Positions 52,029 to 60,295 of a DNA stretch of 64,000 nucleotides are shown here, in pieces; position 1 is the stretch's first letter, and each line of letters begins with the position of its first letter. Origin of the DNA: Pyramidobacter porci (GTDB lineage: Bacteria; Synergistota; Synergistia; Synergistales; Dethiosulfovibrionaceae); assembly GCF_009695745.1 (NCBI RefSeq), contig NZ_VUNH01000013.1:1-64000 (forward strand). The letters run 5' to 3'. Below the pieces are notes generated by a model, which did no database searches, was not told the DNA's origin, and worked only from the letters and a program-made list of their open reading frames with translations. Position numbers and translations under genes: made by a program.

Positions 52029-53339
52029 TTAGTCCTCCGTGAAAACAGTCTGCTCGGTCACCGGGGTCTGCAGAGCCTTGAGAGCGCGAGTGACCAGGCG
52101 GTAACGAAGCGCGAACTCCTCCTCGGGCTTCAGCGCGGGGTTGCCGAGCGGGTGAGGAATGGCCACGGTGGGAATCAGACGGTTGGCGCCGACGCTCAGA
52201 GAGATCGGCACGATCGTCAGCATGTGGACCACGGGGACGTCGGCATTCTCTTCAATAGCTTTGACCATCGTTGCACCGCAACGAGTGCAAGTGCCTCAGG
52301 TGGAGGTGAGAATGACCGCGTCGACCTTGCCGTGCAGCTTCTGGCCGATCTCCGTGCCGAAACGCTTGGCGTTGGCGACGCCGGTGCCGTTGCCGACGGT
52401 GGTGTAGAAGAAATCGTAAAGTTTGCCGATCTTGTGTTCCTTCTCCAGCTTGCGCATCACGTCGACGGGAAGCACGCGGTCGGGATCCTCGTTGGCGTAG
52501 GTCTGATCGTAGCCGCCGTGAGCGGTCTGATACTCGCCCTGCTTCAGATCCTCGACGCCGGCGATGTTGTACTCGCCGTAGTTCTGGGCGCTGGAAGCAG
52601 CGATGTGGTCGGGGTTGCCGAAGGGCACGATACCGCCGGAAGTGACGAGGGCGATCGTGGCCTTGGTGACGTCCTTGAGCGCCGGACGGGGTTCGACGCG
52701 GTCGAAGACGGGCATCTTGTACTCGGTCTCGAACTTCTCGCCCTTGAGCTTGCTGATCAGCATCTTCACGGCGCGCTCCGCGCCGACTTCGTCGTAGAAC
52801 TTGTTGACGCGCACGCCGCGCTCGATATAGCCTTCGGCGGCGGGAGCGCCGAGCTTTTCGCCCTTCATCTGGCGCAGGATGATGCTGGCCATGACGGGTA
52901 CGGCCTTGCCCAGTCCGCGGGCGCTGTCGGCGGCGCTGACAATGTAGGTGTACTTCTTGTACAGGTCGACGCCGGGGTTCTCGACGTACATGGCGGAAAC
53001 GGTGGGAATGCCCAGCTTCTCGCCCACGGCCTTGCAGACGGCGCCGCAGGCGGTGCCGTAACGGCCGGCGTTGAAAGCGGGACCGGCGACGAAGCCGTCG
53101 GCGCCGAACTTCTTCACGGCCTCGACCACGAAGTCGGAAGCGGCGTCCATGTTCTCGGCGAAATAGGAGTCGCCGCAGATGACGGTGGCCACAATATCGG
53201 CCTCGCCCTTGAAAGCGTTCTTCAGGGCCAGACCGGGGCCGACGACGCCTTCGCGCACTTCGGGCGCGATGTCGGCCTTTTCTTCTCCGCCGATGCCGGC
53301 GAAGAACTGGTTGATATAATGAACTACTTTATAAGTCAT
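52029..53339 (-). CDS. grdB: Glycine/sarcosine/betaine reductase component B, selenoprotein GrdB
   Basis: A 436-residue selenoprotein read through an in-frame TGA at 52296-52298 (codon 348). Upstream codons end VDAVILTST and downstream codons begin GTCTRCGATMVKAIE, exactly the GrdB/F/H active site U-x2-C-x2-C. Treated naively the gene splits into 347- and 79-residue frames. GDSYFAENMDAASDFVVEAV and PSRP-free GGYDQTYANEDPDRVLPVD are family features. It binds substrate and forms the selenoprotein half of component B with GrdE products. ATG follows AAGGAGGGG. The glycine riboswitch upstream suggests glycine over betaine or sarcosine. Confidence 0.95.
52271..52298 (-). promoter_or_regulatory. Selenocysteine UGA and putative bSECIS hairpin
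   Basis: The TGA (52296-52298) is followed on the minus strand, five bases later, by TTGCAC-N8-GTGCAA (52271-52290), a six-pair stem whose loop contains TCGTTGCG. This is a plausible bacterial SECIS for SelB. It overlaps coding sequence for the CxxC residues. Confidence 0.75.
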
Positions 53340-53388: not shown

Positions 53389-54681
53389 CTAGATCGTGTA
53401 AGCGCCGTTTTTGGTGAAGCCGACTTCACTCGTGGCGCCGGTGATGATCTGGATCTCGGCGAAGATGCTGCCGTCTTCCTTCAGCGAGCCGAAGAAACCG
53501 CCGGCCATGACGTCGGCGAACTGCGTGTCGCCGATGATCCTGTCCATCGGGGGCAGGGTGATGGTGGCGTTGGCGTTGCCGGCGGTGACGCAGGCGTCGC
53601 CCTCGGGGCAGGTGTCGGCCAGAGACTGGGAGGCGCCGTCGCGGTTAGCGTATTCGTCGGTGACGAGGACGGTCTTGATGCCCTTGCGCTCGCACTTCCA
53701 GCAGTTCATGACCAGGTCGGCGTCGGGGTTGCCGAAGCCTTCCTCGGAGATGACGGCCGCGTCGGCGCCAAGAGTCTGGGCCAGCTTGACGGCGTAGGAG
53801 CTGCTGCGCTTCTTGTCGGCCAGCGTTACGTTCTCGTTGGTAATGACGACGCCGATGAAGTTCAGATCCTTGCCGTGGTGCTCGTAGAGGCTCTTGATGA
53901 TGGGGTTGTTCAGATGCACGTAAGTGCTGTTCTTGTCGCAGGCGGAAACGCAGTTGCCGGAGCAGATGGCGCCGTCCATGACTTCGGTGGCGTTGATCAC
54001 CGAGGGGATGATCTTCTTGGCGTCGACACCGTAGACATAGGTATCGTGAAGCAGGCCCTGAGTCTGCAGCATGTAGATGTAGGCGACCTTGGGAAGCCCG
54101 GGGTAGGCGGCCAGGGCATCCTTGTAGCAGGGAGCCTCGAACGTCTCAACCTTGTCGGCCGTGAATCCGGCCTTTTTGATCTGCTGGGCGATGAAAACGG
54201 CGGCCTTCAGTCCAGCCATGCGGCAGCTCGTCTCGCGGTTGTGGTTCTCAAGCCCCTCAACGGGGTTCAGGACCAGAACGATGTTCTTGGTCTTGGAGAA
54301 CGGCGTCAGTTCGGCGCCGGGGCCGGACATGTCGACGATGCCTTCCTGAGGAGCGATAAGGCGGCCGGTGGTAACCACGGCGGCGCCGTCGAGGACCAGC
54401 GTGGAGCCTTCGCCGACGGTGTCGACGTCGCCGATCATGCCGGGGAACACCTCGTTGGTTCCCTCGATCTTGCAGCGGGGTTCGACAACGTCCTTGACGG
54501 GCATGATGCGGGTCTTCTCGCCCGGATGGGCCAGTTCCACATCGACACTGGCGAGACGATCGTCATCCATCAGATGGTCGATGATGGCCTTCTTGTTGAT
54601 GGTGAGCACCCCGCCCTTGACGGAGAATTCGTCTCCAAACGCGATCTTGTCAATCTTTACCTTATGGAGTTCAAGCTTCAA
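53389..54681 (-). CDS. grdE: Glycine reductase component B proprotein GrdE
   Basis: A 430-residue proprotein that is cleaved to give the pyruvoyl-bearing and small subunits of component B. The conserved cleavage region GAICSGNCVSACDKN is at about 238-252, with Cys240 the likely pyruvoyl-forming residue. Start is TTG at 54681, in KLELHKVKIDKIAFGDE, after GGGAGGAG; the longer frame upstream lacks a site. The pyruvoyl group forms a Schiff base with glycine. Encoded between grdX and grdB. Confidence 0.93.
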   Translation of the reverse strand: MKLELHKVKIDKIAFGDEFSVKGGVLTINKKAIIDHLMDDDRLASVDVELAHPGEKTRIMPVKDVVEPRCKIEGTNEVFPGMIGDVDTVGEGSTLVLDGAAVVTTGRLIAPQEGIVDMSGPGAELTPFSKTKNIVLVLNPVEGLENHNRETSCRMAGLKAAVFIAQQIKKAGFTADKVETFEAPCYKDALAAYPGLPKVAYIYMLQTQGLLHDTYVYGVDAKKIIPSVINATEVMDGAICSGNCVSACDKNSTYVHLNNPIIKSLYEHHGKDLNFIGVVITNENVTLADKKRSSSYAVKLAQTLGADAAVISEEGFGNPDADLVMNCWKCERKGIKTVLVTDEYANRDGASQSLADTCPEGDACVTAGNANATITLPPMDRIIGDTQFADVMAGGFFGSLKEDGSIFAEIQIITGATSEVGFTKNGAYTI

Positions 54682-54838
54682 GATAACTCCTCCCTTCTGA
54701 ATGTTACCCATGCCCCTCCTCGGGGCACTGATGCCGGAAAATCCGGCGGCGCGCGGTACCTGTATCGTTTAGATCATGGCCAGAAACGGTTCCACGCTCT
54801 GCCCAGCGGAGGGAAACGTTTCGTGCCCGGATAAAACG

Positions 54839-55228
54839 CTAGTGGATCAGATTGTTCTTGAGAAGCGTCTCCTTCATCAGCTCGAAGTCGATCTCGGAAC
54901 AGTCTGCGGCCATCCGGGACGGCGTCTGCTCCGGAGTCAGCGGATAAGGATCGTTCGTGTAGACGAGCGCGGCTTCTTCGATCAGGTTGAGGCCGTATTC
55001 GTCGAATCCCGCCTTTTCGTCTTTTTTCATCAGCAGCGTGCGGAACGGCTGCTGGTGCGGCCGGAAGTTGCCGTACAGGGGATGATTCTGCAAGGCCCAG
55101 CCCTGGTGGATCAGATCGCGCCCGGCGGTAATAACGTCCTTTCCGGCGCCGCCGACGAACTGCACGGGCAAATCGGTCCGGTCTTTGTAGCGCGGGTTGT
55201 TCGTGAGCAAAATAAAACGACAGGACAC
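54839..55228 (-). CDS. grdX: GrdX protein
   Basis: A 129-residue soluble protein found at the front of glycine and betaine reductase operons. The SCRFILLTNNPRYKD start and LPVQFVGGAGKDVITAGRDLIHQGW region are family typical. I place the start at GTG 55228, eight bases after GAGAGG; the frame opens earlier at 55276, and an ATG eight codons upstream is possible. It lies directly downstream of the glycine riboswitch. Its function is not established. Its stop is TAG. Confidence 0.85.
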   Translation of the reverse strand: MSCRFILLTNNPRYKDRTDLPVQFVGGAGKDVITAGRDLIHQGWALQNHPLYGNFRPHQQPFRTLLMKKDEKAGFDEYGLNLIEEAALVYTNDPYPLTPEQTPSRMAADCSEIDFELMKETLLKNNLIH

Positions 55229-55296
55229 CACGTTCACCTCTCTGGCGCTCATGTGTCTCTGTCGTACGATTTGCACGTATGTTCAGAGCGGCGTCC

Positions 55297-55402
55297 GCTC
55301 GGGATCCTTTGTGCCTGAGAGTTTCCGCAATGGAAAAGCGTTTTGCGTTGCCCCTTCGGCGTCCGACCCTCACAAAACAGGCCGGGATCTCTCTCCCGAA
55401 TT
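55297..55402 (-). ncRNA. Glycine riboswitch (single aptamer)
   Basis: On the minus strand the conserved gcvT-motif elements occur in order: TTCGGGAGAGAGATCCCGG (opening stem), GACGCCGAAGGGGCAA (core), a variable arm, and AAACTCTCAGGCACAAAGGA (closing core), then CCCGAG. Only one aptamer is visible. It ends about 70 bases before the grdX start, so glycine could control expression of the grd genes. The expression platform was not resolved. Confidence 0.93.
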
Positions 55403-55417
55403 TCTTTCGCCGTGTTC

Positions 55418-55445
55418 ATTTTACAACCAACGAGAAAAAGTTCAA
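55418..55445 (-). promoter_or_regulatory. grd operon promoter
   Basis: TTGAAC (55440-55445) and TAAAAT (55418-55423), 16-base spacer. Transcription would begin just before the riboswitch. Confidence 0.6.
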
Positions 55446-58822: not shown

Positions 58823-60175
58823 TTACATCAGCCCCTGGATCAGGATCGCCAGGATCAGCAGCGGCAGCACGAACTGAAAATAAGGCTTGAAGCGGCGGCT
58901 CATCTTGATGCCCGCGCCTTTGTTGCACTCCGCCAGGTATTTGTCGAAGCCCCAGCCCCATTTCGTCACGCAGAACAGCAGATAGATCAGCGATCCCAGC
59001 GGCAGCAGCAAATTGCTGACGACAAAGTCTTCGCTGTCGAGCACGTCGCGCGAGCCGAGGATGCGGACGTCGCTCCACAGATTGTAGCCCAGCACGCAGG
59101 GCACGCTGGTCACGAGCACGAAGGCGCAGTTGAACCACACGGACTTGGTGCGCGACCAGCCGAAGTTGTCCATGCAGGCGGCCAGGATATTTTCGAACAC
59201 GGTAATCACCGTCGAAAAGCTGGCGAAGGTCATGAACAGGAAGAACAGCGAACCCCACAAGCGGCCCGCCTCCATGTTGATGAAGACCTTGGGCAGCGTG
59301 AGGAAGATCAGCGACGGGCCGGCGTCGGGCTGCACGCCGAAGCTGAAGCAGGCAGGAAAGATGATCAGCCCGGCCATGAACGCCACGAAGGTGTCGAGCG
59401 CGACGATGCGCACGGCTTCGCCGGTGAGAGTGAACTGATCCGACATATAGCTGCCGAAGATCTCCATCGAGGCGATGCCGAGGCTGAGCGTGAAGAACGA
59501 CTGGTTCATGGCCGCCATGATCACGTTGCCGAGTCCGGAAGCTTTCATGCGCGTCACGCTGGGCAGCAGATAAAAGCGCGCCCCCTCGCCGGCTCCCGGC
59601 AGCAGCAGACTGTGCACCGCCAGCACCACGATCAGCGCCAGCAGACCGAGCATCATCCACTTGGTGACCTTCTCCAGTCCTTTCTGCATCCCCATGGAAC
59701 AGACCAAAAAGCCGCCGATCACCGTCAGCGCCATGCACAGCGCCATCTCCTCGGGATTGCCGAGCATGCCGCCGAAGACCCCGTTCACCTTCTCGGCCGC
59801 CATGCCGTCGAACGTGCCGAAAGTGAACTTGAAGAAGTACGACAGCATCCAGCCGGAAACCGTCGTGTAGTACATCATCAGCAGATAGTTGCCCGCCACG
59901 CAGAACCAGCCGTGCACGTGCCATTTGCTGCCGGCCGGTTCCAGCGTCTCGTAGCCCTTGACGGCGCTCTTGCGGCTGGCGCGTCCCACCGCCAGCTCCA
60001 TCGTCAGCACGGGAATGCCCATACAGATCAAAAACAGCAGGTAGAACAGCACGAAAATGCCGCCGCCGTTCTGCCCCACCAGCCAGGGATACTTCCACAC
60101 GTTGCCGATGCCGATCGCGCAGCCGGCGCTGACCAGGATGAAACCGATCCGCGACTTGAAACTCTCTCTTTCCAT
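58823..60175 (-). CDS. Neurotransmitter:sodium symporter (SNF) family amino-acid transporter
   Basis: A 450-residue LeuT-fold symporter with about 12 helices. RIGFILVSAGCAIGIGNVWKYPWLVGQNGGG at the N-terminus carries the NxxxFP-like sodium site, and later MAAMNQSFFTLSLGIASMEIFGSYM matches TM6. FFLFMTFASFSTVITVFENI matches TM8. ATG at 60175 follows GAGGAG eight bases upstream. Bacterial members carry tryptophan, tyrosine, leucine, alanine or glycine; the substrate cannot be fixed here. Runs convergently with hypE and ends by parS. Confidence 0.93.
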   Translation of the reverse strand: MERESFKSRIGFILVSAGCAIGIGNVWKYPWLVGQNGGGIFVLFYLLFLICMGIPVLTMELAVGRASRKSAVKGYETLEPAGSKWHVHGWFCVAGNYLLMMYYTTVSGWMLSYFFKFTFGTFDGMAAEKVNGVFGGMLGNPEEMALCMALTVIGGFLVCSMGMQKGLEKVTKWMMLGLLALIVVLAVHSLLLPGAGEGARFYLLPSVTRMKASGLGNVIMAAMNQSFFTLSLGIASMEIFGSYMSDQFTLTGEAVRIVALDTFVAFMAGLIIFPACFSFGVQPDAGPSLIFLTLPKVFINMEAGRLWGSLFFLFMTFASFSTVITVFENILAACMDNFGWSRTKSVWFNCAFVLVTSVPCVLGYNLWSDVRILGSRDVLDSEDFVVSNLLLPLGSLIYLLFCVTKWGWGFDKYLAECNKGAGIKMSRRFKPYFQFVLPLLILAILIQGLM

Positions 60176-60253
60176 TATCCTTCGCTCCTCAGATGACAAG
60201 TTTTTCAGACGCGGCGGAAAACCCCTCGCCGTCTTTTCTGAAAAGTTAGCGGC

Positions 60254-60262
60254 ATTATAGCA
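60254..60262 (-). promoter_or_regulatory. Extended -10 promoter of the symporter gene
   Basis: Minus strand TGCTATAAT: consensus -10 preceded by TGn. No good -35 lies 16-18 bases upstream, as is common with extended -10 promoters. It is about 80 bases before the ATG at 60175. Confidence 0.6.
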
Positions 60263-60295
60263 CACGTGCCACGTTTTGAGGATTATTTTTTTCAT

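Follow-up and report, generated by a model that had tools for sequence, protein, structure and literature searches.

A type 1 glycine riboswitch with a 3' ghost aptamer upstream of grdX-grdE-grdB in Pyramidobacter porci and related Synergistota

Introduction

Glycine riboswitches have been described in front of glycine reductase genes. In Clostridioides difficile, the grd operon (CD2357-48) has a glycine riboswitch upstream that is reported as a likely ON switch (PMC11477304, PMC10880999), and a review states that glycine raises grd transcription in this organism. The architecture of such riboswitches was treated by Crum et al. 2019 (PMC6944388), who propose that tandem glycine riboswitches decay into singletons with ghost aptamers. 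Type 1 singletons, as presented there, have one working aptamer and a 3' ghost with P1 kept, and are associated with catabolic genes.

We analysed a 64,000-nucleotide stretch of a P. porci contig (hereafter the window) in which an initial annotation, made from the sequence, had placed a single-aptamer glycine riboswitch before the genes grdX, grdE and grdB. This locus resembles the one in C. difficile in having a glycine riboswitch upstream of a glycine reductase operon. However, Pyramidobacter belongs to another phylum, and the likeness drawn here covers the riboswitch and its position. The locus also shares the listed features of type 1 singletons but differs in its target, which is grd rather than the gcv and transporter contexts discussed in PMC6944388; a term count of the text of that paper gave 0 occurrences of both 'grd' and 'Synergist'. 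Our literature searches, which covered full texts in part, turned up no description of such a riboswitch at Synergistota grd genes. In kind the riboswitch is ordinary, being already known at C. difficile grd from the sources above, and the less expected part is the predicted ghost-driven platform that overlaps the grdX start.

Results

Three Rfam matches exceed the gathering score in the window. Besides the glycine riboswitch RF00504 they comprise a SECIS_4 element and, at the start of the window, a 16S rRNA gene represented by its 5' end; each is encoded on the minus strand. The RF00504 match (56.3 bits, gathering score 32, E 6.1e-9) covers model positions 1-94 of 94, and the core motifs GGGAGAGAGA, CGCCGAAGGGGCAA and GAAACUCUCAGGC are retained in the alignment. 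RF00504 has no other match in the assembly, and a genome-wide search found no second aptamer over the threshold anywhere in the Pyramidobacter genome. The aptamer region by itself shows no folding advantage over shuffles (z -0.03). The covariance model thus bears out the riboswitch that the initial annotation had claimed, and the gene order grdX-grdE-grdB is confirmed. The interval first proposed, 55228-55402, ends at the likely grdX start codon, drops the first four aptamer bases and leaves the minus strand unstated. The predicted switch outruns it, into grdX to about 55209. Coordinates are collected in Table 1.

Table 1. Features of the grdX-grdE-grdB locus, in window coordinates.
Feature	Position	Strand	Description
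Promoter-like TTGAAC-N16-TAAAAT	55418-55445	minus	9/12 consensus matches
Glycine riboswitch aptamer, full length	55292-55406	minus	RF00504 match
Ghost (decayed second) aptamer	55257-55288	minus	P1 strands CUCUG (55288-55284) and CAGAG (55261-55257), small hairpin between
Predicted OFF hairpin	55217-55265	minus	ACGACAGAGACAC (55265-55253) pairs with GUGUCCUGUCGU (55228-55217)
Putative Shine-Dalgarno-like AGAGAGG	55237-55243	minus	apical part of OFF hairpin
U-rich run UUUUAUUUU, possible intrinsic terminator	55209-55217	minus	directly 3' of OFF hairpin, inside grdX
grdX	54839-55228	minus	NF038093, 87.1 bits, cut-off 40; likely start GTG 55228
grdE, proprotein subunit of glycine reductase protein B	53389-54711	minus	profile match
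grdB selenoprotein	52029-53339	minus	TIGR01917 over cut-off; one in-frame TGA (52298-52296)
SECIS_4 element	52258-52295	minus	60.3 bits, gathering score 38

Upstream of the aptamer lies a promoter-like motif, from which a transcript start near 55411 may be placed; two such motifs were found in the region compared to 1.4 expected in shuffles, which is weak evidence alone. A start at this position would adjoin the aptamer, so that the transcript could not accommodate a ghost aptamer on the 5' side. On the 3' side, the description 'single aptamer' holds for the ligand-binding part but not for the whole leader, as the ghost of a second aptamer follows (Table 1). Its pair of P1 strand motifs is present in 96 of the 103 grdX-linked leaders that we identified in Synergistota (see below). 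No covariation of ghost P1 was seen within family f8 or the window's own family because the strands hardly vary. With no second aptamer over threshold and a ghost P1 on the 3' side, the riboswitch is classified, by its sequence, as a type 1 singleton with a 3' ghost aptamer.

Less decayed forms occur in the same phylum. Two adjoining aptamer matches were found at nine Synergistota sites; three of these belong to grdX leaders and the remaining six lie in front of gcvT-like genes. Seven grdX leaders (L089, L092, L101, L104, L011, L030 and L031) carry half-decayed second aptamers, in which the P3 parts GGGGCAA...GAAUC are kept and the core is gone. Together, the tandem, half-decayed and ghost leaders at the grd operon fit the decay scheme of Crum et al. 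(PMC6944388).

Folding of the window leader predicts a hairpin (the OFF hairpin) in which GUGUCCUGUCGU, the grdX start codon and next codons, is covered by ACGACAGAGACAC. The 3' strand of ghost P1 lies within ACGACAGAGACAC, and the hairpin competes for the same bases. Its apical part holds the Shine-Dalgarno-like AGAGAGG. The duplex is modelled at -20.5 kcal/mol, with 0 of 100 shuffles as good, and a 48-nt part of the hairpin has a fold z of -2.74. In the folding model, ghost P1 and the OFF hairpin are mutually exclusive. Without ligand, the modelled energies are -69.4 for the OFF fold and -63.8 for the ghost-P1 fold, an OFF advantage of 5.6 kcal/mol that, if the model is right, must be overcome by ligand or by folding order. 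A pairing of the Shine-Dalgarno-like region with the aptamer (GCCAGAGAGG with CUCUCAGGC), considered by eye, was dropped in favour of the start-codon hairpin, which is the stronger of the two and is also found in relatives.

We compared leaders across Synergistota (f and g denote family and genus; the window belongs to f1). The fold test used 96 of the 103 grdX-linked leaders, the other seven being left out for missing strand motifs. Hairpins with z <= -2 were found in 45 of the 96: f1 11/12, f8 13/16, f7 2/2, f3 4/5, f2 3/4, f10 5/7, f4 1/2 and f6 g10-18 6/16. None reached z <= -2 in f5 (4 leaders), f6 g19 (15), g20 (3) or g21-29 (10). Since the hairpin is lacking in several lineages, the platform is not universal. 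A strong comparative signal comes from f8 (median z -3.75), where the homologous hairpin was aligned over 14 sequences (13 distinct) and 20 pairs, with 94.6% of cells paired. Seven of the 20 pairs are double-changed (26 cells; 0/500 shuffles; slid controls at most 3). Elsewhere, the pair beside CGAC is G-C, A-U or U-A across 15 leaders of f6 and f7. Among the 96 leaders, CGACAG and CUGUCG occur together in 22, the first only in 20, the second only in one and neither in 53; given the non-independence of related genomes, we do not count a Fisher test on this co-occurrence as proof.

The same hairpin could serve the glycine ON switch in another way, with control exerted mainly by transcription termination and not by hiding the start codon. 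A U-rich run stands right behind the hairpin in the window, the corresponding run reaches 8 U or more in homologous leaders, and a U-rich run also follows the strongly folding f8 hairpin, with about 8 U in part of that family. However, genus g2, of the same family as the window, has a strong hairpin and no such run, and the run in the window is broken by an A. A consensus terminator scan, whose loop limit is 8, did not list the hairpin either. We therefore regard control mainly by termination as possible but somewhat doubtful, and keep start-codon hiding as the preferred reading of the hairpin.

To place the locus among its relatives, RF00504 was searched in 185 Synergistota genomes and found in 118, at 130 sites. 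The first gene directly downstream is grdX at 103 of these sites (103 genomes), with a GrdE match in the fetched stretch for 100. The other 27 sites precede gcvT-like genes (17, in one cluster), lipoate-protein ligase (3), AGCS transporters (2), GrdA as the longest early frame (2) or an unassigned membrane protein (2), or lie at a contig end (1); these labels name one representative per cluster. The initial annotation had raised sharing of the riboswitch by related grd clusters, which is what we find, and had given gcv and transport genes as the usual targets. While gcvT-like and AGCS sites do occur, grd is the commonest target in Synergistota. The pairing of riboswitch and grd is real, but the unusual setting that had been implied is not, given its recurrence at 103 of 130 sites and the C. 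difficile precedent.

One genome has a second glycine riboswitch, upstream of a lipoate-protein ligase gene (L098, G041:C51). Over the promoter and aptamer it can be aligned with that genome's grdX leader, and the ligase gene opens with codons, MVCRALSHQNHP, that resemble a decayed grdX start. By sequence, this switch looks as if it had been copied together with the first grdX codons.

We next consider GrdB itself. Matches were called glycine-type when over the curated TIGR01917 cut-off (121 of the 150 GrdB matches listed, with 29 below); a split at 612 bits was set aside as it had been chosen after seeing the list. Among the matches listed, 94 of the 121 glycine-type genes lie within 6 kb downstream of a same-strand aptamer, compared to one of the 29 others, whose match is incomplete and lies close to the end of a contig. 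The 27 glycine-type genes without a link include the four lowest-scoring of the 121 listed. We rescanned 15 stretches beside unlinked glycine-type genes. Two have a glycine riboswitch cut by the contig end and 13 have no match to any glycine riboswitch family, showing that true absences exist. L138, L139, L140, L141, L143, L144 and L145 are grdX loci of glycine-type clusters with no glycine riboswitch match. In Synergistota, the riboswitch is nevertheless the rule for the glycine-type reductase.

For the proteins of the window, the likely GTG start of grdX aligns with the ATG of relatives. GrdE, whose closest relative found is 98% identical (Pyramidobacter sp. C12-8), best matches sarcosine_GrdG among NCBIfam models (573 bits, below the cut-off of 780), and its NCBIfam matches include no glycine-specific GrdE model. 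GrdB reaches the cut-off of the glycine-type model TIGR01917 (644.0 bits, or 638.4 in the genome-wide search; cut-off 602.2). HMM scores alone would not settle its substrate. The same genome encodes four GrdB paralogs with one TGA each. Of these, the window copy alone exceeds the glycine cut-off and carries an RF00504 aptamer; the aptamer is absent at the other three. L037 best matches betaine GrdH (672.6 bits, cut-off 775 not reached) and stands beside a transporter that we presume from its look to be BCCT-like, L036 best matches sarcosine GrdF (628 bits, cut-off 800 not reached), and L038 is the fourth. GrdA (selenoprotein A) is encoded on another contig (G000:C10, 252.7 bits, cut-off 130), and PF02504 has two matches (351.8 and 109.2 bits) that are candidates for GrdD of protein C.

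It could be argued that the substrate of the operon is sarcosine or another N-methyl glycine, with glycine merely a cue, as the sarcosine model gives the window GrdB a slightly higher score (659 bits) than the glycine model does. Yet the sarcosine cut-off of 800 is not reached while the glycine cut-off is, the separate paralog L036 also best matches the sarcosine model and has no RF00504 aptamer, and it is glycine-type GrdB that the aptamer accompanies. We find this distinctly unlikely. The initial argument that this GrdB/GrdE pair acts on glycine, and not on betaine or sarcosine, is well supported by the association of the aptamer with glycine-type GrdB and by the paralogs that do without it.

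Two neighbouring features were also recorded. An NSS-type sodium-dependent transporter, possibly for amino acid uptake, lies upstream of the riboswitch on the same strand (window 58823-60295). At L036 and L154, CUCUCAGGCAUAAAAC, which is like the 3' core of the glycine aptamer, is flanked by a GrdB paralog on one side and a GrdX-transporter pair on the other; this candidate remnant of a riboswitch, in front of the second GrdX, has its exact motif in 2 of the 4 genomes looked at.

Discussion

At this locus the analysis identified the aptamer, both strands of ghost P1 and the order of the genes, and across the phylum it found the link to glycine-type grdB. We consider it likely that the transcript of grdX-grdE-grdB is controlled by an ON switch, namely a glycine-binding type 1 singleton riboswitch with a 3' ghost. 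The 3' strand of ghost P1 is able to pair with either CUCUG or the grdX start. Without glycine, it would pair with the grdX start, forming a hairpin that hides the start codon with the U-rich run behind it. With glycine, ligand binding would stabilise the aptamer and ghost P1. Once formed, ghost P1 would keep ACGACAGAGAC off the start region so that grdX could be translated, and transcription would not be terminated at the U-rich run. The ON-switch reading is drawn from the mutual exclusion of ghost P1 and hairpin and from a model that favours the hairpin without ligand. Both the platform and the C. difficile case lead us to predict glycine induction and its direction. Under this explanation of a riboswitch-controlled grdX-grdE-grdB, the GrdB/GrdE pair most likely reduces glycine.

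The arguments are evenly balanced on a more specific proposal: that the ghost aptamer is the switching element and not a mere scaffold, sharing its P1 3' strand with the start-codon hairpin, and that the grdX codons M-S-C-R (UCC UGU CGY) are kept as its RNA partner in distant Synergistota genera. If the first codons are kept for pairing with the ghost strand, the riboswitch would reach into the coding sequence.

The opposite direction was weighed, since OFF switching has been demonstrated for glycine riboswitches that precede AGCS transporter genes (PMC11477304). However, the ghost here is 3' (type 1), which Crum et al. (PMC6944388) tie to glycine cleavage genes rather than transporters, the modelled ghost-P1 fold rules out the start-codon hairpin, and the gene product consumes glycine; a glycine OFF switch is very unlikely. 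That the RNA is instead a glycine-GGAnGA variant (RF03166) sensing another ligand is scarcely plausible and was rejected: the window does align end to end with this 177-position model of aptamer plus second domain (55410-55255, spanning leader, aptamer and second-domain P1) at 59.7 bits, slightly above the 56.3 of RF00504, but this is far below the gathering score of 110, the second domain in the model adds score, and the core letters are those of RF00504 (CUCUCAGGC) where RF03166 has CugACaGGC.

For the glycine ON switch that we favour, these leaders offer a platform that can be tested, with the ghost strand as its predicted driver. The Synergistota grd leaders, tandem, half-decayed and ghost, form a natural series for testing the decay of tandem glycine riboswitches. 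Finally, the position of the aptamer separates glycine-type GrdB from close paralogs in the same genomes, making it a practical annotation marker for Stickland-type reductases in Synergistota.
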